A stretch of 24,007 nt of DNA from a virus, in IMG/VR virus record IMGVR_UViG_3300049830_000056, positions 1 to 24,007 of that record. One strand, given 5' to 3'. This document shows positions 1-12,430 of this stretch, one piece after another (position 1 is the stretch's first letter; each line of letters opens with the position of its first letter). The translations under genes were made by a program, and so were the position numbers. The notes beneath the pieces are model-generated. The model saw only the letters and a program-made list of their open reading frames with translations, was not told the DNA's origin and did not search any database.

Positions 1-686
1 ATATTAGCATATTCATTAACATAAGCTTTATAATACTCACTACCAAAAACCCCAGTTAATAAATGGTCAGTATAACCAACTGTGTTTAGTGCCAATTCTC
101 TAATTACACATTGCCGGCAAGCAGCACATGGTTTCCCATCAGCATGATGACACGAAATAGTATTCTCAATAATATCATTGATATCTATATTTCTATATAT
201 ACATTCTTGTAACATAGAAACTTTATTAAGACCCAATTCAGCAATTGGTAACTTTACCATAATATTAGGGCAGAACTGATTTAATACATATTGAAACAGT
301 TTAGAGGTTTCTTCGGCGAATGTATAGTTTTTATCTTTGTGTTTATTAGATACTTCTGTCGCCAGTGCACCCAGCCAAATTTCATCTGGAGTATATTCAC
401 ATGCAGCATATGTTGCTAGAAGTAAGTTCCTGCCAGGAATATAATATTTAGCACCAGGCAAATTGCCACCTGGTTGTTCGACTGCCCCCCCTTTTAGAAA
501 GTCGGGCAATCTATGAATATGAACGTCGCTAGGAAGTCTAGTTACTTCTTCGTCCATGCTTTCGTTATTATGCGAAATATATAGTTTAATGATGTTGTCA
601 GCTGATGTTTCAAACTCAGCAAATTTGGACATAATATAACTGTCCATTCCTCCACTATAGAGGATTACTATCTTCTTTTGTTTCAT
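1..686 (-). CDS. queC: 7-cyano-7-deazaguanine (preQ0) synthase QueC, 3' end outside window
   Basis: QueC converts 7-carboxy-7-deazaguanine (CDG) to preQ0 with ATP and ammonia, the last step of the GTP-to-preQ0 route. 228 residues are visible and the frame is open to the window edge. The N-terminal PP-loop is SGGMDS (residues 11-16). YIPGRN (82-87) matches the conserved family motif. The zinc site is C179-x7-C187-x2-C190-x2-C193, very close to the family pattern. The ATG at 686 is chosen because MKQKKIVILYSGG is a normal QueC start and an AAGGAA-type ribosome site lies upstream. The gene overlaps the end of the HAD-like gene by 32 bases, so translation is probably coupled. The C-terminal end is not visible. 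Identity is secure; a role in DNA modification rather than tRNA queuosine is inferred. Confidence 0.95.
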   Translation of the reverse strand, partial: MKQKKIVILYSGGMDSYIMSKFAEFETSADNIIKLYISHNNESMDEEVTRLPSDVHIHRLPDFLKGGAVEQPGGNLPGAKYYIPGRNLLLATYAACEYTPDEIWLGALATEVSNKHKDKNYTFAEETSKLFQYVLNQFCPNIMVKLPIAELGLNKVSMLQECIYRNIDINDIIENTISCHHADGKPCAACRQCVIRELALNTVGYTDHLLTGVFGSEYYKAYVNEYAN

Positions 687-1056
687 GCCAAACATTTTCC
701 TTCTCAACTAATTCATGCTGCAATAATACCACGTTAACCCAGCCAAGCTGCGATACAACCGCAGCTTGGATTGGATCGTCTTCGAAATGAATTCCAATAT
801 CTATACCATCTTCTCTAAGATTTTGAATAGTAGACTTTTTATGTTCACCAGAAGATTGTCTAGTCTTTTCATCAAATTTTAGTGGATTGAAGTAAACTTT
901 ATTATATATGCCTTTAGAAGTCAACATTTTTCTTGTGTATTCTTCTTCTTCAAATGATCTACCAGTAATTAAAATATCGTTGGGTCCGGGGTAGACTCCA
1001 TTAAAGGAGTCCCCCATATATATTACGCCATCAATATCAAACGAATTAATTCGCAT
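655..1056 (-). CDS. HAD-like phosphatase
   Basis: This 133-aa protein has the HAD-superfamily motif series. Motif I is D7-I-D9-G, motif II is the Thr of ITGRS (T31), motif III Lys is K73 or K74, and motif IV is E92-D93-D94. It has only a minimal cap, so it is a small phosphatase-like enzyme whose substrate cannot be read. The ATG at 1056 is preferred over an upstream in-frame TTG because AAGGAG sits about 10 bases ahead and motif I falls at the usual place near the N-terminus. It overlaps the preceding inositol-phosphate-synthase-like gene by 11 bases and queC by 32 bases, forming a tightly coupled trio. Dephosphorylation of the neighbour's sugar-phosphate product is an attractive guess. Similar small HAD proteins in phages are also annotated as nucleotidases or 3'-phosphatases. 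Confidence 0.75.
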   Translation of the reverse strand: MRINSFDIDGVIYMGDSFNGVYPGPNDILITGRSFEEEEYTRKMLTSKGIYNKVYFNPLKFDEKTRQSSGEHKKSTIQNLREDGIDIGIHFEDDPIQAAVVSQLGWVNVVLLQHELVEKENVWHETKEDSNPL

Positions 1057-2326
1057 AATCGTTTGTCTCCTTCTGGAAACTATACGATAGACTTTCAACT
1101 GTTGGGGTATTATCTTTAAGTTGTTTAGTAGTTAATGGTGTTAAAATGCGTCTAGCTAATGCATCGCATTCAAACTTAGCATCTTCTGTCTTCATTTGTA
1201 ACGGTGGTGTCTTTTGTGTCCAAGCAGAAGCACCTCTTAAATATCCAACAATGCCAAGTTCCGATGCTACCTTACAAAAACGAATTGCAGATACCACAAC
1301 CGAACCCGAATTTGGAGAATCTTGCACTGATAATCTAGCAGTTAGTTCATATCTAGCACCAGCAAAACCATAAGCGACAATATCAAAATTGGCAATCTTG
1401 TTGTCAGAACCTACATATTCACCACCCGGCTTTTGTTGTACTGTCAGACTAGGTCCAGCATATAGCGTCATTCCAGCGATGCTTTCGTCTCTAACTTCGT
1501 TTTGTCCCTTTAGCACATTTTCTTTAGAGATATGCTTTGACTTTAGTCGATATTCTTTAGCCATATTAAGGAAGTCGCAGTTAGCAGTTCTGCCAGTTCT
1601 AATATTCTCTTGTCCTTGAGTAGATCCACAAGCCATATTCATTTGAATGTGTTGTGTTACCATAAGACCAGAATCTAACATGGCACCCTGTAGAACTTCT
1701 GACATCCTAGAAGCTCCCCAACCCGAACGCATATCAGAACCAACGAACGTTAGTCCCGCTTCAATGAAGGCTTTTTCTGTATCTGCGGCTTCTTGTGTAG
1801 ATATTAAAGTTGGGATACAATTAACAAAGTGACACTTAGCTTCTAACGCAGCCTTAACATAAAAGGCAGTAGCTTCGGAAGACCCTACTGGAAGATAGTT
1901 AATAATAACATCGACATTATGATATTTTAATAATTGTACCACTCTATCATAAGATTCGGCTGGGATGGCGCCAGTCCTAAATGACACTTCTTCTGGATAG
2001 TCTAACATATGGGGTGCAATGCCATCAAGCTCTGGTCCCGAATATACTAATGCACCAGGTAATATGCAAGCATCTGTAATTTCAGTTACGTGATTCATCG
2101 CACAATTAGGTTTAGCCCTAAGTGCGTCTTTTAATGGGTGATTTACTTTTCTAATATCAACATCGAAACCACAAACAAACTCAATATCGTTTACTGTATA
2201 TCCTCCAATATCTGGATACATTAAACCTACATTATCATTAGGATTTTCGATGTAATATTGAATTCCCTCTACGAGAGATTTAGCACAATTTCCGACGCCG
2301 ATAATGGCGACCTTGATTTTTTTCAT
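1046..2326 (-). CDS. Myo-inositol-1-phosphate synthase-like protein (actinobacterial type)
   Basis: MIPS turns glucose-6-phosphate into inositol-1-phosphate in an NAD-dependent reaction. This 426-aa protein resembles the short actinobacterial/archaeal form. It has a GVGNCAKSLVEG nucleotide-binding loop near the N-terminus, GGYTVNDIEFVCGFDVD, NYLPVGS, a SKHISK segment and a DSPNSGSVVVSAIR segment, all in family order. Where the family has D-[IL]-K-S with a Lys I recall as catalytic, this protein reads SDMRSGWGAS with Arg, so the chemistry may differ. The ATG at 2326 follows AAAGGAA by about 6 bases; an upstream in-frame TTG would put that site inside the gene, so it is rejected. It is the first gene after a late promoter at 2416-2423 and is followed by the HAD-like gene and queC. 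Its role in the phage is unknown. Confidence 0.85.
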   Translation of the reverse strand: MKKIKVAIIGVGNCAKSLVEGIQYYIENPNDNVGLMYPDIGGYTVNDIEFVCGFDVDIRKVNHPLKDALRAKPNCAMNHVTEITDACILPGALVYSGPELDGIAPHMLDYPEEVSFRTGAIPAESYDRVVQLLKYHNVDVIINYLPVGSSEATAFYVKAALEAKCHFVNCIPTLISTQEAADTEKAFIEAGLTFVGSDMRSGWGASRMSEVLQGAMLDSGLMVTQHIQMNMACGSTQGQENIRTGRTANCDFLNMAKEYRLKSKHISKENVLKGQNEVRDESIAGMTLYAGPSLTVQQKPGGEYVGSDNKIANFDIVAYGFAGARYELTARLSVQDSPNSGSVVVSAIRFCKVASELGIVGYLRGASAWTQKTPPLQMKTEDAKFECDALARRILTPLTTKQLKDNTPTVESLSYSFQKETNDYAN

Positions 2327-2364
2327 TGGTATTCCTTTCAATATATCAGTTGTTTTACGGAATT

Positions 2365-2384
2365 AATTTCCGAAGGCGGAAATT
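2365..2384 (-). other. Perfect 8-bp hairpin in the leader of the MIPS-like gene
   Basis: AATTTCCG and CGGAAATT form a perfect inverted repeat around a 4-base loop. An overlapping alternative pairing (CGGAA with TTCCG, about 2356-2370) could compete with it. It lies in the 98-base gap between folE and the MIPS-like gene, downstream of the late promoter, so it would be in the 5' leader of that transcript. No T-tract follows on the minus strand, which argues against a simple intrinsic terminator. An mRNA-stabilising hairpin or regulatory element is possible. Confidence 0.5.
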
Positions 2385-2415
2385 TGGCTCAGGATAGAGG
2401 TAGCCGCCTATATGG

Positions 2416-2423
2416 TATTTATA
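2416..2423 (-). promoter_or_regulatory. T4-type late promoter for the MIPS-like/HAD/queC genes
   Basis: The minus strand reads TATAAATA, the exact late-promoter box recognised by gp55-RNA polymerase in T4-like phages. It abuts the folE stop codon and sits about 90 bases before the MIPS-like start, in one of the few intergenic gaps of the left operon. Position and perfect match support it. No upstream -35 element is expected for this class. Confidence 0.7.
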
Positions 2424-3107
2424 TCATGCATGACAAGTTTGTGTCTGCATTGCAATATTATCGAAGAATTCTTTTTTAAGGTCTGGGCGCATAAAGCTTC
2501 CTTTTAATACTGTTGTCTGAGTTAAAGAACTATGAGCGTTAATTCCGCGGTTTGTGCAACATCCATGTTCAGCTGCAATATATACAGCTACATCTTGTGA
2601 CTCAGTAGCGGCTTGAATTTCCCGAACAATATTGTTACATAGCTCTTCTTGCAACGTACCGCGTCTTGCACACCATTGAGAAATCCTAACGTATTTCGAC
2701 AAGCCGATAACTTTATGACTTGGAATGATACCGATATAAGCAACACCTGTAACTGGCTGATGGTGGTGGGAGCATTGCGACTTTAATTCGGCTCGAACTA
2801 CCAACATACCTTCGTATTTATCTTCTCCGTCATTAGGAAAAGCAGTGGCAGCTGGTTTCTTTTTATAACGACCTGACATAATCTCATTAAAGTACATCTT
2901 AGCTAGACGTCGAGCAGTACCATGCGAATTGGGATCGTTCTCTCTATCAATTACTAGTGCATCTAAAACACTTTCAAATGCAACAGTAGCTTCATCAATT
3001 AAATTTTCAATATCGCCATCTTCAATGGCAGATGAGATATTATCTCCTGCCCAAAACCTAACATTCTCTTCTTTTAATCTTGTAGCAATAGCTTCGCTTG
3101 TCTTCAT
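2424..3107 (-). CDS. folE: GTP cyclohydrolase I (FolE)
   Basis: FolE opens GTP to 7,8-dihydroneopterin triphosphate, the first step of both folate and 7-deazaguanine synthesis. This 227-aa protein has the usual family length. The zinc ligands are visible: C112-S-H-H115, with C183 in EHGCC, matching Cys-x-x-His and Cys in the E. coli enzyme. HKVIGLSKYVRI, RRGTLQEELC and TNRGI are standard T-fold segments. The ATG at 3107 begins immediately after the TAA of the small membrane-protein gene (TAAATG), suggesting coupled translation. With queD, queE and queC in the same operon its product is most likely channelled to preQ0. The gene is followed directly by a late promoter. Confidence 0.95.
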   Translation of the reverse strand: MKTSEAIATRLKEENVRFWAGDNISSAIEDGDIENLIDEATVAFESVLDALVIDRENDPNSHGTARRLAKMYFNEIMSGRYKKKPAATAFPNDGEDKYEGMLVVRAELKSQCSHHHQPVTGVAYIGIIPSHKVIGLSKYVRISQWCARRGTLQEELCNNIVREIQAATESQDVAVYIAAEHGCCTNRGINAHSSLTQTTVLKGSFMRPDLKKEFFDNIAMQTQTCHA

Positions 3108-3287
3108 TTATACCATCTCTTCAATAATGCCAACTACTTCGGCTGCTAATAGACCTACAGCTAAGATATGGATAGCTGTCATAGCATCCATAGTTACTGC
3201 GGCAATAATAGCAGAAGTAATTCTAATTCCACTCTTTACAAAACTAATAATCTTATGTGCGATTGCGTTTGGGTATTCAGTTTGCAT
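3108..3287 (-). CDS. Small membrane protein between queD and folE
   Basis: This 59-aa protein is not recognised. After a short polar N-terminus (MQTEYPNAIAHKI) it is largely hydrophobic, with a likely amphipathic stretch followed by one or two membrane helices (about residues 20-55) and an acidic tail EEMV. The ATG at 3287 is chosen over one at 3308 because AGGAGA lies 8 bases upstream of 3287. It starts inside the end of queD (11-base overlap) and its stop abuts the folE start, so it is embedded in the pterin/deazaguanine gene run. Nothing shows a link in function. Confidence 0.7.
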   Translation of the reverse strand: MQTEYPNAIAHKIISFVKSGIRITSAIIAAVTMDAMTAIHILAVGLLAAEVVGIIEEMV

Positions 3288-3744
3288 TTGGTCTATCTCC
3301 TGATACATAAGCCATATTACTATCGGTTTCTCTTACTTCTACTCTAGTACACCATACTCTATCTCCATAACCATAAGTAGGGAGAAACTGTTCGTTTACA
3401 TAATCGTAAAGGAATTCGGCAAGTCCTTCACAACCAGTCTTTTCTACAATAGTAATTTTAGCTAGCTTTAAATCGCCTAGCTTTTTAATATCTTCGAAGT
3501 TAGGGTCGTCTTCTGCAAGCAATAGTGCATGGTCAAACCATTCTTCTAACTTGTCTTTTAGTGGACGAAGTGACCCATAGTCTACGGACCAGTTTCGGGC
3601 ATCTAGTTCATTAGTGCCAAATTCAAAATGAAAAGAGAAGGCGTAACCGTGGATTTGATTGCAATGTGAATCTGCTCGCCATTGCCTATATGCACAAGGT
3701 GCAATTTGTCTATATGTCTTTGTGGATGTATATTTATAGGACAT
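3277..3744 (-). CDS. queD: 6-carboxy-tetrahydropterin synthase-like protein (QueD)
   Basis: QueD converts dihydroneopterin triphosphate to 6-carboxytetrahydropterin, the second step to preQ0. This 155-aa T-fold protein keeps the catalytic Cys (C28), H32 of the IHG segment, the D71-H72 pair in WFDHALLL, and Glu in CEGLAE (E106); VRETDSNMAY matches the C-terminal ET motif. Two usual zinc ligands appear changed: the His of the A-H-R motif is Tyr (A-Y19-R) and HGH is HGY (Y34). Phage QueD-like proteins with HGY are familiar to me, the first change less so. The ATG at 3744 overlaps the previous stop as TAATG and follows GGGAAT; an in-frame TTG at 3753 is rejected. The context with folE, queE and queC supports the assignment. 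Confidence 0.88.
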   Translation of the reverse strand: MSYKYTSTKTYRQIAPCAYRQWRADSHCNQIHGYAFSFHFEFGTNELDARNWSVDYGSLRPLKDKLEEWFDHALLLAEDDPNFEDIKKLGDLKLAKITIVEKTGCEGLAEFLYDYVNEQFLPTYGYGDRVWCTRVEVRETDSNMAYVSGDRPNAN

Positions 3745-4100
3745 TATTCCCAATATTCCCTTTCAAGATCTTCAATTCTATTACTTATGTTAATTGGTAG
3801 TATTACATCATCGTAATTTTCGATGTGTCCTAGACTATTTATCTTTCTAAGATATTCAATAAATGGAATACCTTTCCAAGGCAATTCTGGTCTAGGCCAA
3901 ATAGAAAAGCCATCAATCACATTATTGTCATCATCTAGCAACAAACATTCGCATATTAGCATATTATAACAATTAACTACATAACGGCCAATTCTATTTT
4001 GGGAACTGCCGTTATAGTTTAATCTGCCATAGAAAATTTGAGCAGTATCTGCTTCAAGCACTTTACTTTTTGGTTGAACTATCATGTTCTTTTGTCGCAT
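3744..4100 (-). CDS. Small acidic protein, second gene of cassette copy 2
   Basis: This 118-aa protein has no recognised function. Its middle, NMLICECLLLDDDNNVIDGF followed by an L-P-W-K and an IEYL segment, matches the 90-aa protein at 7396-7668 (NMLI..., LVFDDQGKVVDGY, F-K-W-N, ILEHL), so the two are paralogues. Both lie directly downstream of paralogous His-rich genes. The start at 4100 has AAGAG upstream and overlaps the end of the His-rich gene by 38 bases; a second ATG at 4085 is possible. Its stop overlaps the queD start. The acidic character and pairing with a basic partner would allow an immunity- or chaperone-like role, but that is conjecture. Confidence 0.7.
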   Translation of the reverse strand: MRQKNMIVQPKSKVLEADTAQIFYGRLNYNGSSQNRIGRYVVNCYNMLICECLLLDDDNNVIDGFSIWPRPELPWKGIPFIEYLRKINSLGHIENYDDVILPINISNRIEDLEREYWE

Positions 4101-4620
4101 ATGCTCTTATAATATTATAGCTTGCTGGATCTGTTTTATTCCACAAATGATCGACATGATTATCGATATTAGTATGATCAATTGGTAGTTTCTTACCATT
4201 TATTTTTGCTTCGAACTTAACGCCTTTGGGTTTGCTTTTGATAAACTTAACCCAAAGATGTTTGGCACCTACAGATTGTTGCGCATCTGTGAGTAATTCG
4301 CCATGTTCTTTAATATGGTGTTTCATATGATGCACAATATGTTTTACTTCACCAGAACCCTTTACGATATAATTCTGAACATTATTGTTGTTCATTCTAG
4401 AATATTCGTGCGGAATGCCATTTGTTTTATGAAAATAATGATGACCGTCATGATCTTTATAATAAAAATTAGAATTGCCAATTGATCTGCTTTTAACTGC
4501 CGCTAGTTTAGTTTTAAGTTTCTCAATACCAGCTTCCATATTATCCTTTGTGAAAAAGGTATTAATTTGTGGGTTCTCTTGTAGAGCTCTTAGTCTTTGT
4601 TGAAACGTTTTAAATGACAT
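4063..4620 (-). CDS. His-rich basic protein, possible internal head protein, cassette copy 2
   Basis: This 185-aa protein is not recognised by function. The N-terminus MSFKTFQQRLRALQE resembles T4 capsid-targeting leaders and ends in L-Q-E, which fits the gp21 head-protease rule [LI]-x-E. The centre is rich in His and Lys (HHMKHHIKEHGE). The block EL-T-D-x5-G-A-K-x-LW-x2-FIK-x2-P-x2-VKF is shared with the protein at 7665-8195. That block resembles, from memory, a segment in diverse phage GNAT-like or virion proteins, but I would not assign an activity. The ATG at 4620 is used because GGGAG precedes it and the phosphoribosyltransferase stop is 2 bases upstream; an in-frame upstream TTG at 4641 is rejected. 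Confidence 0.75.
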   Translation of the reverse strand: MSFKTFQQRLRALQENPQINTFFTKDNMEAGIEKLKTKLAAVKSRSIGNSNFYYKDHDGHHYFHKTNGIPHEYSRMNNNNVQNYIVKGSGEVKHIVHHMKHHIKEHGELLTDAQQSVGAKHLWVKFIKSKPKGVKFEAKINGKKLPIDHTNIDNHVDHLWNKTDPASYNIIRAYATKEHDSSTKK

Positions 4621-4622
4621 GT

Positions 4623-5099
4623 TTACTCCCAAGGAAAGCAATACCAGCGCAGCTCTTCCGAGCGTTTAATCTTATAGTGATAAAAGTTCGCTGGTGTTTC
4701 CTGATCTTCGTTATAGATCATAGTGGCAATTCTAATGTTATCCATATTTAACGGATCTCTAATCGAACTCTGCCAGTCTGCTAGTAGTTCACGAATGGTA
4801 TCACCGCCATCTAGAATATCGTCAACGATAAGAATTGTCTTACCGGCATTAATATCTTCAGGAACCCAACAGTTACTTTCGTTACCAATAAACGTACTAT
4901 CTCTAGCACTCCATTGAATCATGACTACTGGTAACTTTAGTTTATGGGCAAGATATACTGCCGGAACAGCGCCACCACGAACTATTCCAACAATATAACT
5001 TATTTCTGCTTTAGAGTCAAGCACTTCTTTTGCAATTTTATTAATACCTTCTAGAAATTCCGGATAGGTATAATCAATAATACTGGTGGCGTCAATCAT
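4623..5099 (-). CDS. Purine-type phosphoribosyltransferase
   Basis: This 158-aa enzyme of the type I PRTase fold would join a base to PRPP. The PRPP-binding motif is ILIVDDILDGGDTIREL (about residues 89-105) with the D93-D94 pair, and the loop before it is YIVGIVRGGAVPAVYLAHKL. The short length and layout resemble bacterial xanthine-guanine/hypoxanthine PRTases (Gpt-like). The C-terminal aromatic segment WYCFPWE fits that group. The ATG at 5099 follows AAGGAAA. It lies in the deazaguanine operon between an unknown gene and the second His-rich cassette. A simple purine-salvage role is the default; use of 7-deazaguanine bases as substrate is possible but unproven. Confidence 0.88.
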   Translation of the reverse strand: MIDATSIIDYTYPEFLEGINKIAKEVLDSKAEISYIVGIVRGGAVPAVYLAHKLKLPVVMIQWSARDSTFIGNESNCWVPEDINAGKTILIVDDILDGGDTIRELLADWQSSIRDPLNMDNIRIATMIYNEDQETPANFYHYKIKRSEELRWYCFPWE

Positions 5100-5110
5100 G
5101 TATTATTTCC

Positions 5111-5776
5111 TTACTTCTTAAAGGACTCTAGAACGTCCATAACATCAACGTCTGATTCTGTTGTAATTACTTCTTCTACTTCCACTGCATCAAGATTAGC
5201 TCTGCCAATAGTACCACTTGAAAGGATTCCACTACCAATGCTAATACCGATGCCAGTAATTGATGGGCTTAGTGTACCAGTACTAGCTACTGGGTCTGAC
5301 CAGATATTATATGAATTAACTCTAGGCATAGTCGAAGCAGGTTCTGCGTCTGTCTCCTCAGTAGCGGCAGTTGTTTCCATATTATAAGTTGGTGCATAAT
5401 TATACATCGAACCCATATACTGCTTGACAGAGTTAACAAATACCTTACCAGCTTCAGACGCGGCTTCTAGACTAGGTGCAGTCACAGTACCACTAGCCAT
5501 ATCAATACTAATTAAAATATCACCCTTAGTATTCCAAAGATTGTATGAATTTCTAGAGGGCGCAATTGAATAATTATTAATTGTATCGGTTAAAATACCC
5601 GCTGTAGTAAAATTTAAAGATGGTTCAGCAAATGTATTTTCATACTCTTGTTTGAAAGTTCTTAACTCAGTCGCCGCAGGCAGTGACACCCAATCATATT
5701 CTATATTACAACCTTTAATTGTTACATCTTTCGCAATAACCATATTATTCTCCTCTGATTGTTCTTCTTGGTACAT
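5111..5776 (-). CDS. Unknown 221-aa protein with repeated NSYN[IL]W motif
   Basis: The product is not recognised. It has two short repeats, N-S-Y-N-L-W (about residue 77) and N-S-Y-N-I-W (about residue 155), each following a Pro/Arg turn. A Gly/Ser/Thr-rich stretch (about 165-190) and an acidic C-terminus ending DVLESFKK come after. The composition suggests a secreted or virion beta-structure protein rather than an enzyme. Two starts each have good ribosome sites: 5776 (AAGGAGA, 8-10 bases) and 5743 (AGAGGAGA, about 5 bases), giving 221 or 210 residues. It lies 3 bases after dexA and 11 bases before the phosphoribosyltransferase gene, in the same operon. Confidence 0.65.
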   Translation of the reverse strand: MYQEEQSEENNMVIAKDVTIKGCNIEYDWVSLPAATELRTFKQEYENTFAEPSLNFTTAGILTDTINNYSIAPSRNSYNLWNTKGDILISIDMASGTVTAPSLEAASEAGKVFVNSVKQYMGSMYNYAPTYNMETTAATEETDAEPASTMPRVNSYNIWSDPVASTGTLSPSITGIGISIGSGILSSGTIGRANLDAVEVEEVITTESDVDVMDVLESFKK

Positions 5777-5779
5777 TAA

Positions 5780-6415
5780 TTATATCTCCTTATCTGAAAT
5801 TATCCGTTCGATGCGTTGCATACGCAAAACGTCTGCCGCGATATCGTGGACGGGATTATGAAGTTGAAACATTTCTTTCCATTTGGTTTCATCTGAAATG
5901 GGGCAGATTCCATTAACTATATTCTTAAAATCGAATCTAGTATCTATAAACGTTCTAATATCACGAACTTTCCAGAAGTCCAGTACTTGGTTAACTGCTA
6001 AGTTATCACCATAGACATCAAAAAAATTCCGCTGTAACAATAGTGGATCGAATGTATTACTTCGAGACCACCATCGTTTAACTTTTCTATTATTACTTTT
6101 GATATAATCAGTAAAGTTTTCACAAAACTGTTCTGTAGTAATATCATCTTCACTTGGCTTAATTTGCTTCTTGGCTATTGGTCCTTGTTTGGTCCACCAA
6201 GCTACATCATCTTCTAATGCAGTATAACCACGTTTAAGTTGATGTTTAATATCAAACTTATCGAACTGTGCGTCTGATATAATTTCTTCGAACGTATAGG
6301 GATTATTACTGGCAAACCTATCCCAATCAAATGTATAGTATGCACAATTAACTACAGCACAAGTAAATACGTAAGGTCCAATAGTTTCGTAATCGATAAT
6401 TAAATTTAGCTGCAT
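5780..6415 (-). CDS. dexA: DexA-like 3'-5' exonuclease
   Basis: This 211-aa protein aligns along its length with T4 exonuclease A (227 aa), a DEDD-family 3'-5' DNA exonuclease that degrades host DNA. Visible metal-binding motifs are I-D-Y-E near residue 9 (T4 has IDFE) and the late H-D-I-A-A-D motif near the C-terminus. The segments WWTKQGPIAKKQIKPSEDD, NTFDPLLL and VRDIRTFID match T4 counterparts closely. The ATG at 6415 lies 3 bases after the queE stop. No clear ribosome site is visible, so translation is probably coupled to queE. In a phage with modified DNA, selective decay of unmodified host DNA by DexA would fit, though that is inference. Confidence 0.9.
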   Translation of the reverse strand: MQLNLIIDYETIGPYVFTCAVVNCAYYTFDWDRFASNNPYTFEEIISDAQFDKFDIKHQLKRGYTALEDDVAWWTKQGPIAKKQIKPSEDDITTEQFCENFTDYIKSNNRKVKRWWSRSNTFDPLLLQRNFFDVYGDNLAVNQVLDFWKVRDIRTFIDTRFDFKNIVNGICPISDETKWKEMFQLHNPVHDIAADVLRMQRIERIISDKEI

Positions 6416-6418
6416 AGG

Positions 6419-7359
6419 TTATCGTCCAATTTCGTTGCCAAAGATCGAAACGTGTACTCGAGCCGATACATTATAACCAAGCGATAATGCTCGTAGTGTT
6501 ACTTCCTTAGCTACCGCTTGCTGGCCTGCTTCAGTTGCACCCACTGGCATAATGAATACAGGATACGAAACGCCAGCTGCCCTAAATTCCTTTACAACTC
6601 GATCCAGTTCGTCCCACTGTCTATCTTCTGGTCCTAGAACAAATTTAAGTTGCCCCTTAGTAGAAATATTAGAATAGCTCTTAACTACTTCTGGCTTAAT
6701 TGCCTTTTCATTTCGTTCACCCGATACGGTAAATAGCTTAGGAGATACAGAGAACATAATACGAGTATATTGACTGATATCCTTGAAATAATCAGAAAAT
6801 TCTTTGGTAAGATTTTGTGTGCCATTAGTTTCAAAAGTAACATACCTTGGTAGATTATTAGAACGTCGCATTGTAGTACCGGGCATAATACCGCCTGTAT
6901 ACTTTTCAAACTCCTGCATAAGAGCTATAGTATCTCTTTGTGACTTAGCTAATAGTGGTTCGCCACCAGTAAAGCACATATGCGTCTCTGATTGCGAATA
7001 ATCATTTAGGAATGTACCATAAGGATTGTGATCTGCTGTCATTAAGTCCATTAACTTCTTGGCTAAGTCCTCTGCCGTATCTGAATGTGATAGGCATTTA
7101 AACTTTTTCGACCAAGTATAAGACGAATCACAACCATAATCCCAAACAGGAAGATCTTCTAATCTATTTACCAAAGCTACATCAAAGTCTTTATATGGCA
7201 ATATATAGGTTTCTGGATTAGTTGGATCTTTTTGCCCGAAGCCCGAACATTGGAGGTTACATCCCCAGTAACGTAACCAGACTGTATTACAGCCGGTGTA
7301 CATACCTTCTCCTTGAAGACTAGAGAAAAAAACTCAGAATAAGAAATTAAATTACTCAC
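6419..7359 (-). CDS. queE: 7-carboxy-7-deazaguanine synthase QueE, split by a frameshift at codon 11
   Basis: QueE is a radical-SAM enzyme that makes CDG, the third step to preQ0. Downstream motifs are clear: RYWGCNLQC, GCDSSYTW, FTGGEP, FETNGT, SVSPKL and an IMPVG segment. A GTG at 7359, 5 bases after AAAGGAGGT, encodes MSNLISYSEFF and then meets a run of seven T (7332-7326). The family-specific S-S-L-Q-G-E-G follows only in the -1 frame, joined to the main frame that continues to 6419. That main frame has a TGA at 7336-7334, so it cannot be entered from farther upstream. Joined, the protein is about 313 aa. The Fe-S cysteines read C-x3-C-x38-C. An ATG at 7303 with AAGGAGAAGGT ahead could start a version without QGEG, which I expect to be inactive. 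Either programmed -1 shifting, a mutation or a sequence error explains this. Confidence 0.88.
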
Positions 7360-7364
7360 TCTGC

Positions 7365-7373
7365 ACCTCCTTT
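7365..7373 (-). promoter_or_regulatory. Very strong ribosome binding site of queE
   Basis: The minus strand reads AAAGGAGGT, a near-complete anti-16S match, 5 bases before the GTG at 7359. It decides that translation begins in the upstream frame, which encodes the first 11 QueE residues and not the frame of the main body. Most genes nearby use weaker AAGGAA or AAGGAG sites. Confidence 0.85.
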
Positions 7374-7395
7374 CGAAAATAGAATTGTCATAATA

Positions 7396-7668
7396 TTAAA
7401 TTGTTCCTTTTTGTAGAGCTTCTACTAGATGTTCTAGTATGCTTTTATTATTCCATTTAAAAGTATCATCGTCTACGATACAATACCCGTCAACTACTTT
7501 ACCTTGATCATCAAACACTAAACATTGGTCTAGTGGATACCTTGCATTAGTGATGAGCATATTATCCTTATATAACATAACGTTATCAATGTCAAGTGAA
7601 TTATGGAACTTGTTATATGCTTTTTCTAGTAATGCTTCATCGTTTGGCTTAAAGATATACTGTATCAT
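7396..7668 (-). CDS. Small acidic protein, second gene of cassette copy 1
   Basis: This 90-aa protein is a paralogue of the 118-aa protein at 3744-4100. They share an N-M-L-I stretch, a hydrophobic-Asp-Asp-x4-V-[VI]-D-G-[FY] turn, a W-centred segment and a final I-[EL]-[EY]-x-L helix. It lacks the longer C-terminal tail of the other copy. The ATG at 7668 overlaps the stop of the His-rich gene as ATGA, so the two are translationally coupled. queE begins after a 36-base gap. No function is recognised. Confidence 0.7.
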   Translation of the reverse strand: MIQYIFKPNDEALLEKAYNKFHNSLDIDNVMLYKDNMLITNARYPLDQCLVFDDQGKVVDGYCIVDDDTFKWNNKSILEHLVEALQKGTI

Positions 7669-8195
7669 AGTCTAGTCGCATGTATTCTATGTTTATCATT
7701 TAGTTTGATATTATCGCCCCAAAGATCTTCTTTATGTATATTGGCAGCATTAACTAGTCTTGGTTTTTGATATTGACTAGAGTGTGTAAATTTAATATCA
7801 GGAGAGTCTTTAATAAAGTTAGTCCATAACTTCTTAGAACCACTAGTGTGGAATACGTCTGAATGTAATTCATTATGTCTATAAATGTGATATGCCATAG
7901 ATCGACTAATATTCTTAGCAGAACCAGCAGGTCCTTTCGCTACATATTCTTGGTTGTGAGTAGGTCCTACAACAGATATACTGTGTACCCTAGTACCTAA
8001 AATACTAGGTGATGTGTGAAAATATATAGTCTTATCGTCATGTTCGATATATTTGTGATTAGGACCAATGCTAGTCCAAGGCTTATTTGATTTAATAGTC
8101 TTAACTAATTCCTTAGTTTTCTTAGCCATAAGATCTTTACTATCACCAGGTGAGTGATAAGGCATCTCTCTTAGGAATTGTTTAAATGATTTCAC
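7665..8195 (-). CDS. His-rich basic protein, possible internal head protein, cassette copy 1
   Basis: This 176-aa protein starts with MKSFKQFLRE. That closely resembles the capsid-targeting leader of T4 internal proteins (MKTYQEFIAE), including a terminal [LI]-x-E that fits gp21 cleavage. Its body shares with the 185-aa protein at 4063-4620 a YVAKG-type segment, a His-rich HIYRHNEL helix and a G-S-K-K-LW-x2-FIK-x-SP block. The protein is basic. It starts with GTG overlapping the def stop as GTGA, with only a weak AGAAGA site, so coupling is likely. Packaging into the head and delivery into the host is inferred from the leader alone; the body has no assigned activity. Confidence 0.75.
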   Translation of the reverse strand: MKSFKQFLREMPYHSPGDSKDLMAKKTKELVKTIKSNKPWTSIGPNHKYIEHDDKTIYFHTSPSILGTRVHSISVVGPTHNQEYVAKGPAGSAKNISRSMAYHIYRHNELHSDVFHTSGSKKLWTNFIKDSPDIKFTHSSQYQKPRLVNAANIHKEDLWGDNIKLNDKHRIHATRL

Positions 8196-8689
8196 TTGTT
8201 TCTTCTGTTTAGTATTTTCATTTTCTTCTTAGCTTGCTCTTTGTGATAAGCAGTTGCTTGGTCGAACATGCATAGTCCGTCGAGATGGGAATTTTCGTGC
8301 TGAAACGCGCGAGCCGTAATTCCGTCAAATACCTTGGTCGTAACTTCACCATTAGGATCACTATAACGGACTTTAATCTTCTTAGGACGTCTAACCTTTA
8401 CAACTAACCCGGGATAACTTAGGCAACCTTCTTCTAAATATAGCTGCTCGTTCGATACATCGATTATCTTGGGATTAAAGCATGGAATAAGCTCTGTACC
8501 ATATAATACAAATACTCTAGTATTAAACCCTACTTGGTTTGCTGCTAATCCAATCCCATTATAGTGCATCATAGTTTCTGCTAGGTTACTAACAAAGTCT
8601 AGTGGATCCACAATGGGATTGGAAAAGTCAAAAGGATCCAATACCGTTTTTAAAATAGGATCATTATTTGGTACTAGATCATATAACAT
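8192..8689 (-). CDS. def: Peptide deformylase
   Basis: This 165-aa metalloenzyme removes the formyl group from new proteins. All three family motifs are intact: GIGLAANQ (45-52), EEGCLS with metal ligand C89, and QHENSH with H131, E132 and H135. The length is that of a full bacterial enzyme, slightly short at the C-terminus as in other phage deformylases. It is the first gene of the left operon, 12 bases downstream of the -10 box of a sigma70-like promoter at 8701-8729. The ATG at 8689 has a modest GAGAG site; the messenger leader would be very short. It overlaps the next gene as GTGA. Phage deformylases are usually explained as boosting processing of phage or photosystem proteins. Confidence 0.95.
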   Translation of the reverse strand: MLYDLVPNNDPILKTVLDPFDFSNPIVDPLDFVSNLAETMMHYNGIGLAANQVGFNTRVFVLYGTELIPCFNPKIIDVSNEQLYLEEGCLSYPGLVVKVRRPKKIKVRYSDPNGEVTTKVFDGITARAFQHENSHLDGLCMFDQATAYHKEQAKKKMKILNRRNK

Positions 8690-8700
8690 AATATTCTCTC

Positions 8701-11344: not shown

Positions 11345-12413
11345 TTAAACTCCTTGGTGTAAGGCTTCATTATATAGATCTGCCAATAATTTGTCAAGAC
11401 TTTTCTTTTCAACTGTAGTTTCTATTTGCTCTACTACTTTACGAAGTATAGTAAGTGTATCTTCAGCTTCGTCTACAATATCATCAACATCTTCTAGATT
11501 AATGTTGAGTTTATCCTCTAGAACTTGTATATCAATAACGCCGGACTCTTCTAGCTTAGTAATAAACATATCAAACCAATAAGGATTATTTTTGTTATTA
11601 ATTACTACTTTAACATAACTTCCTTTGTAAGAAGAAACGTCCATATCCATAAAGTCTTGCAGTTCTTTATTGCTATCATCATAGAAAATTTTAGTGAACA
11701 TCATAAACGGATTTCGAATAAACGTTATCTCGCGAGTTTCTGTATCAAAGATGTGAAACCCTCTTGGATCATTAAAATCTGACCAAGACATTTCATATGG
11801 TGTACCTAGATAGTTAATATTACCACGACTTGATTTATGGTGATAGTGCCCTGAGCATACAATATCGAACTTGCTAAACAGTTTAACGTCCATGCCGTGA
11901 TCATTAAACGAGCCACGATGCATTTCAAACCCAGCTAGTTCTAGATGTCCTAATAAGATAGGCGCATCTGTCTCTTCGACAAACGACATCATCTTACCAT
12001 AGTTACTATTATTAACCCATGGTAGCAAAGCAATCTTTAAATCATCAATGACAAGATGACTAGGTTCATTTGCATGTACTGTTATATTGGGATATTCGTT
12101 TAATAGTAACTCGGGTGAATTAACGTGGTTTGAGTCTTTATAGAACACATCATGATTACCAACAAAGGTAATTAGATTGATATTCTTTTCTTTACAAGGA
12201 TCGAAGAAGTATTTACGTGCCTTATATAAAGTTAGAAAGTTAATATATTTCCTTCGCTCGAACAAATCCCCTAACTGTATAACAGTAGAGATATTATTAG
12301 CTTCTAAATAAGGAAATAGTGATTGTGAATAGAATTTTTCAAAGTAGTCATGGAACGCTAAGTTATCGTTGCGCGCTCCGAAAGTGTGTATCACCAAGAA
12401 GACAAATCTTCAT
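11345..12413 (-). CDS. 47: gp47 recombination endonuclease subunit (Mre11/SbcD-like), split by a frameshift at codon 11
   Basis: gp47 is the metallophosphoesterase nuclease partner of gp46. The ATG at 12413 (AAAGGAGGT 8 bases upstream) encodes M-K-I-C-L-L-G-D-T-H-F, the expected GDxH metal site (D8, H10). At TTT (12383-12381) the frame would continue to a stop five codons later. One base on (+1), the sequence resumes as F-G-A-R-N-D-N and runs to 11345. The remaining nuclease motifs are intact: LGDLFERR, VGNHD, LGHLEL and SGHYHH. The joined length is about 355 aa, against 339 in T4. Without the first 10 codons two metal ligands would be missing, so the downstream frame alone is unlikely to be a working nuclease. 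Slippage of tRNA-Phe from TTT to TTC before a CGG codon would restore it; mutation or a sequence error are alternatives. Confidence 0.9.
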
Positions 12414-12421
12414 AAGCGATA

Positions 12422-12430
12422 ACCTCCTTT
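12422..12430 (-). promoter_or_regulatory. Very strong ribosome binding site of gene 47, partly in a hairpin
   Basis: AAAGGAGGT lies 8 bases before the ATG at 12413 and fixes initiation in the frame that encodes the GDxH motif. An upstream CTCCT (minus strand, 12443-12439) can pair with AGGAG (12428-12424) across a 10-base loop, which could mask the site. The pairing is only 5 bp, so any control by it is tentative. Confidence 0.7.

Follow-up and report, generated by a model that had tools for sequence, protein, structure and literature searches.

Probable programmed +1 frameshifting at a conserved UUU codon near the start of gene 47 in T4-like phages, with a predicted upstream hairpin as putative stimulator

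The window analysed here, a virus record of 24,007 bases with T4-like genes for a major head protein, a DNA helicase, the late sigma factor gp55, gp46 and gp47, raises the question of how gp47 can be made from a gene that changes reading frame at its eleventh codon. Gene 47 lies on the minus strand and starts at ATG 12413–12411. Read from there (ATG AAG ATT TGT CTT CTT GGT GAT ACA CAC TTT CGG AGC GCG CAA CGA TAA), frame 0 encodes a 16-residue product beginning MKICLLGDTHF and stops at TAA 12365–12363. The break lies at TTT-CGG, where a +1 shift gives back GDTHFGARND; a sequence-only reading had claimed this and it is seen directly in the sequence. The features of the locus are collected in Table 1.

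Table 1. Features of the gene 47 locus, in coordinates of the window.
Feature	Position	Strand	Basis
Very strong Shine-Dalgarno AAAGGAGGT of gene 47	12422..12430	-	Present twice in the window (shuffle mean 0.15)
5' arm of predicted upstream hairpin, UAUCGCU	12415..12421	-	Fold of the window; pairing conserved across relatives
ATG of gene 47, enclosed by predicted hairpin	12411..12413	-	Start aligned in 70 shifted loci
3' arm of predicted hairpin, GGUGAUA (codons 7–8 and first base of codon 9)	12389..12395	-	Ends 5 nt before UUU
UUU, codon 11, putative P-site shift codon	12381..12383	-	TTT in 70/70 non-redundant shifted loci
CGG, putative A-site codon at the shift; C would be the passed-over base	12378..12380	-	CGG in 56/70, UGG in 14/70 shifted loci
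Short 0-frame ORF, 16 codons and TAA	12363..12413	-	Reading of the window sequence
Gene 47 body, +1 frame, SbcD/Mre11-like nuclease, FGARNDN onward	11345..12382	-	PHROG 100, Pfam Metallophos

The +1 body matches PHROG 100 (SbcD-like) with an E-value of 3.5e-106. The joined protein scores 39.3 bits against Pfam Metallophos, starting at profile position 1, compared with 29.7 bits from profile position 20 for the +1 body alone. The gp47/SbcD-like identity is thus based on profile matches that cover both the body and the metal-site N-terminus. No PDB sequence match was obtained for gp47 at an E-value of 0.01 and no Rfam match was found within the window. Gene 47 shares with T4 gp47/SbcD/Mre11 the sequence family and the gene order beside homologues of gp46 and gp55; it differs in that the gene is one open frame in most of the relatives first fetched. 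Comparison of the sequences makes it very probable that gene 47 is decoded by programmed +1 frameshifting at UUU, with the upstream hairpin as the putative stimulator.

Among the gp47 loci first fetched (L002–L157, from which L134 was dropped as a partial hit), the assessable ones are single open frames with the exception of L005 and L119, which carry the same +1 break at TTT-CGG as the window. IMG/VR was searched with a pattern in which the protein is specified on both sides of the break while the four bases at the break are left free. This gives 104 stretches with the same break, and a pattern of TTY plus one free base also gives 104. Among the 80 matches of the first pattern that were listed, TTT is followed by C in 64 and by T in 16. 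When the start is moved one codon upstream, as in the cultured Caulobacter phage Cr30, a second pattern gives 36 stretches, of which 28 are gp47, that of Cr30 among them, all with TTTC (15) or TTTT (13); the other eight are without a gp47 match and read as other in-frame proteins. The −1/+2 version of the break pattern is found in 0 stretches of IMG/VR, and the bacterial genome contigs scanned with the break pattern give 0 matches. Among the loci pooled before the second pattern was applied, 105 of 263 gp47 genes are shifted. Dropping near-copies and contig-edge rows leaves 169 loci, 70 of them shifted, all with TTTCGG or TTTTGG (Table 1). The sequence-only reading had allowed that unbroken relatives would make this isolate a mutant. 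Many relatives are indeed unbroken, yet in total more than 130 IMG/VR stretches, from many metagenomes and including many divergent relatives, share the break at one triplet.

At this triplet the base after TTT is never A or G (70/70 and 28/28 loci for the two start positions). The earlier proposal that tRNA-Phe moves from TTT to TTC agrees with a putative P-site codon that is always TTT and a next base that is always C or T. In the unshifted loci TTT occupies the position of codon 11 in 38 of 99 cases and nine different codons occur there; judged by this comparison, the shift-prone codon TTT is conserved beyond the need of the protein. ACTGACACNCAC is the consensus 5' of UUU, and CGG or TGG fills the putative A site. 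Since GGN is needed after the site, the YGG form follows from the protein, and selection is visible only in which codon (UUU) and which following base (Y) are used. Of all Arg codons CGG is used least, making up 3.4% of them in the ORFs of the window and 4.6% in the shifted contigs. The distance from AUG to the shift codon is constant at 30 or 33 nt, and the 0-frame stop in relatives comes after 13–37 codons (median 14).

A quick tree was calculated from 160 of the 169 gp47 bodies (length filter), 62 of them shifted, with residue 11 omitted. The shift state changes at least 12 times on this tree, by gain or loss and always at the same triplet, and six of the changes are forced by well-supported branches. 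Close pairs of opposite state are S_L119/U_L105 and S_L005/U_L012. A state that comes or goes repeatedly at one triplet is reminiscent of the shift of prfB, the gene of bacterial release factor 2.

Among cultured phages, Cr30 has the same break at codon 12. Its deposited gp47 (KF301602 69886–70836; L263, L351) starts 105 nt past the site and is without the catalytic N-terminus, which the frame break explains. This is a warning that gene callers can truncate a core recombination nuclease and so remove its metal-binding residues. The gp47 genes of Melnitz-3 and DLP6 are unshifted by sequence and that of phiM12 is classed as unshifted by script, while those of S-SRM01, Mosig, HTVC008M and S-PRM1 were assessed from annotation alone. 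Short nucleotide searches, as distinct from a match-by-match reading of the phage collection with its 2769 gp47 matches, found no isolate with the break besides Cr30.

Two further elements, both absent from the sequence-only reading, are linked to the shift: an upstream hairpin and a very strong Shine-Dalgarno. For the hairpin and pair analyses L264 (not oriented) and L076 (no start) were dropped, leaving 167 loci. Folding upstream of the site is stronger in shifted than in unshifted loci (−8.4 versus −4.6, p = 2e-14), which is due to a predicted hairpin whose short 5' arm, lying 3' of the Shine-Dalgarno, pairs with codons 7–8. No downstream stimulatory structure is apparent, the folding energies of shifted and unshifted loci being no different in three downstream windows (p = 0.55–0.72). 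Bases −12 to −7 are fully complemented in the leader of 46% of the 70 shifted loci and of 0/97 unshifted ones. Swapping the partners lowers this figure to 8.4%, and 0/500 swaps reach the native 46%; several pair types are seen at positions −12, −11, −10 and −7. The same swap test on a second set gives 58% for 24 distinct sequences versus 27% when swapped (0/1000). Where the best helix has at least 5 bp, it ends 5–7 nt before UUU in 50 of 64 shifted loci and in two of 55 unshifted ones. A strict five-base stem is present in 50/70 shifted and 1/97 unshifted loci, and is absent from the other 20 of the 70 shifted loci. On the tree this stem differs in about three of six independent pairs, always together with the shift, which is too few for a test. 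In the window itself the hairpin folds at −11.4 kcal/mol (z = −1.74), mildly better than shuffled sequences, 10/200 of which fold as well. Taken over the family, these data point to a covarying predicted hairpin between the Shine-Dalgarno and codons 7–8 in most shifted genes.

The median energy of the anti-Shine-Dalgarno duplex is −12.1 kcal/mol in shifted and −3.3 kcal/mol in unshifted genes (70 and 98 loci). The median share of other ORFs of the contig with a stronger Shine-Dalgarno is 0.0 for the former and 0.67 for the latter, and the predicted Shine-Dalgarno of shifted gp47 genes is usually the strongest of its contig. With a cut at −8 kcal/mol, the shift and a strong Shine-Dalgarno coincide in 5.9 of six independent pairs (median p = 0.03).

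Sequence comparison shows that the selected protein begins at ATG 12413, with ten codons in frame 0 and, after UUU, a continuation one base on. In the mechanism that we propose, UUU would stand in the P site and the slowly decoded CGG, replaced by UGG in some relatives, in the A site; the peptidyl-tRNA-Phe would slip onto UUC or UUU and translation would resume at GGN. Ribosomes that do not slip would stop within a few codons and produce a short peptide. As the putative stimulator, the hairpin would form again once the ribosome has passed, close to the E site, and favour forward movement, while the very strong Shine-Dalgarno would offset both the structured start and the ribosomes lost at the site. 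As for its purpose, we conjecture that gp47 is held low or tied to the state of translation.

The hairpin, by analogy with engineered systems, is placed where a +1 stimulator would act, and it may have a role in initiation instead or as well. The strongest competing explanation accepts a programmed +1 shift at UUU-YGG but has the hairpin and the strong Shine-Dalgarno control initiation and not the shift, for example as the operator of a phage translational repressor. The hairpin encloses the AUG directly 3' of the Shine-Dalgarno, Cr30 encodes a RegA homologue, and in the literature examined no upstream hairpin was found that acts at such a distance in a natural bacterial gene. On the other hand, the stem tracks the shift and mostly ends 5–7 nt before UUU, as described above. 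This tie argues against an initiation operator, which would have no reason to track a frame break, and we consider this explanation rather unlikely.

A programmed shift could also be driven mainly by queueing, with a ribosome held at the start pushing one that is paused at UUU-YGG. Codon 11 lies 30 nt past the AUG, which is approximately the length of one ribosome. Such a model fits the invariant spacing (30 or 33 nt) and the Shine-Dalgarno, in most cases the strongest on its contig. The distance is, however, also fixed by the protein motif and is therefore not independent evidence, and the covarying hairpin is left unexplained. Queueing as the main driving force thus appears improbable.

Whether the joined protein is what is selected was assessed from single-base codon differences. 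In codons 2–10 of shifted genes, 6403 silent versus 1678 other differences are counted in frame 0, compared with 2079 silent versus 8069 other in the +1 frame. In the seven codons past the site the relation is reversed, with 5477 silent versus 707 other in the +1 frame and 631 silent versus 5599 other in frame 0. These counts include related sequences repeatedly and are to be read as contrasts between frames, not as independent events. By this measure frame 0 before the site and the +1 frame after it are each under protein-level selection, and it follows that the joined protein is what is selected. The alternative that no joined protein is made, with gp47 starting in the +1 frame and the short ORF serving as a leader peptide, could draw on TTG 12397, which opens the +1 frame, and on the Cr30 record, which annotates a late start of this kind. 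Such a protein, however, would be without the metal-site residues D and H, and codons 2–10 are under selection in frame 0 and correspond to the N-terminus seen in unshifted relatives. A late start is accordingly very improbable.

Equally remote is decoding without slippage, by a tRNA of phage or host that takes UUUY as a four-base codon, which would account for a site that is always UUUC or UUUU. No tRNA gene was found in the window, and in the 150 kb of Cr30 examined the tRNA genes are those for Arg-TCT, Asn-GTT and Gly-TCC; unusual tRNAs may escape ARAGORN. Furthermore, such a tRNA would misread the 1751 cases of TTT-pyrimidine in other frames of the shifted contigs. A four-base-codon tRNA was rejected, no candidate being found in the window or in the relatives examined.

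A one-base change is the usual sign of a sequencing or assembly error or of a single broken phage, but the conservation of the break at one triplet in more than 130 stretches and the Cr30 isolate, never with A or G next, with 0 breaks of the opposite type and accompanied by the strong Shine-Dalgarno and hairpin, rejects this for the family and makes it scarcely credible.

Among known systems, prfB resembles gene 47 in a P-site tRNA that slips +1 at a conserved site early in the gene, in a duplex just upstream of the E site as stimulator (putative in gp47) and in a shift that is repeatedly absent in relatives. It differs in its site, CUU-UGA, where gp47 has UUU-YGG with a sense A-site codon, and in its internal Shine-Dalgarno, in place of which gp47 would have an intramolecular hairpin. 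The gp47 product is moreover a nuclease, so there is no obvious feedback as for a release factor. According to PMC5009743, UUU_Ynn is especially prone to +1 shifting in bacteria, and the bacterial sites of YopN-TyeA and of FseA of a rhizobial ICE (a UUU site) share with gp47 the UUU, generally a pyrimidine next and a sense A-site codon. The same review gives UUU_CGU as the site of influenza A PA-X (UCC_UUU_CGU), which likewise has UUU, then a CGN codon, and a +1 shift. PA-X differs in using eukaryotic ribosomes and, according to this review, in its very low efficiency and its lack of evident stimulators, and its shift yields an alternative product whereas that of gp47 would be needed for the main product.

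Closest to the proposed stimulator are engineered hairpins. Refolding hairpins placed upstream raise +1 shifting in yeast at CUU-CGG-C (PMC3639245), and in a 70S system such hairpins are ∼60% as effective as an internal Shine-Dalgarno (PMC6321510). As in gp47, these hairpins lie just 5' of a +1 site with a stem on the scale of 6 bp, and the yeast site has the slow codon CGG. They differ in being synthetic reporters with a spacing of 2–5 nt in −1 tests, while the gp47 hairpin mostly lies 5–7 nt before the P-site codon. The gp47 hairpin additionally encloses the start codon.

The gp47 family would make the upstream-hairpin model testable in bacteria. To our knowledge, upstream-hairpin stimulation of +1 shifting is known mainly from engineered constructs; gp47 is a widespread natural candidate for it, with shifted and unshifted sister phages as built-in controls. 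No report of programmed ribosomal frameshifting in gp47/SbcD/Mre11 was found in PMC; subscription papers lie mostly outside this archive and may contain one. More tentatively, and with odds that we put somewhat below even, hairpin and site may form a two-in-one RNA device, in which the hairpin closes the start codon, re-forms behind the ribosome and pushes it +1 at a UUU whose next codon is rare or has a single tRNA, so that gp47 output would read the translation state of the host; T4-like phages would have acquired or lost this device repeatedly. In that case gp47 output would sense the supply of Arg-CGG or Trp tRNA and ribosome loading during infection.

Some observations on tRNA and codon usage may be added. 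Genes for tRNA-Gly(TCC) occur twice each on the shifted contigs L215 and L227 and once in Cr30 (L352), and this tRNA could read a GGA codon that follows the shift. Other genes of the shifted contigs show no avoidance of in-frame TTT-CGG (10 TTT, 6 TTC). Before pyrimidines, TTT is under-used relative to TTC in shifted contigs (0.566 versus 0.676) and in unshifted contigs too; no such under-use is seen in Cr30 (0.53 versus 0.45). The under-use possibly reflects avoidance of slippage or a general context bias.

The sequence-only reading had placed the gene 47 break 'also at codon 11', probably in parallel with queE of the window (GTG 7359, minus strand, region 7303–7373). The queE gene is indeed broken near codon 10–11, and its GTG is preceded by the second copy of AAAGGAGGT, at 7373–7365, and by a predicted hairpin of −12.8 kcal/mol. 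The parallel ends at the break itself, seven consecutive T, where a −1 or +2 change and not +1 would restore the frame. The distinct 5' ends listed for 80 relatives, and 23 more, are unbroken, and the +1 pattern for queE gives 0 matches. A second case of the gp47-type shift was rejected on account of the different shift type and the unbroken relatives; the T run may have been given the wrong length or may be a site of −1/+2 shifting. Scanning the pooled loci for a strong Shine-Dalgarno, a short 0-frame ORF, an in-frame TTTY and a long +1 frame gives 97 matches. Eleven of them do not end in the gp47 motif: four are later TTTY triplets inside gp47, and the remaining seven, located elsewhere, look like chance. 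The queE gene is part of a block of metabolic genes beside the replication genes (655–8700, minus strand), whose other products we take to be inositol-1-phosphate synthase-like, GTP cyclohydrolase-like, QueD-like, phosphoribosyltransferase-like and peptide deformylase-like proteins.
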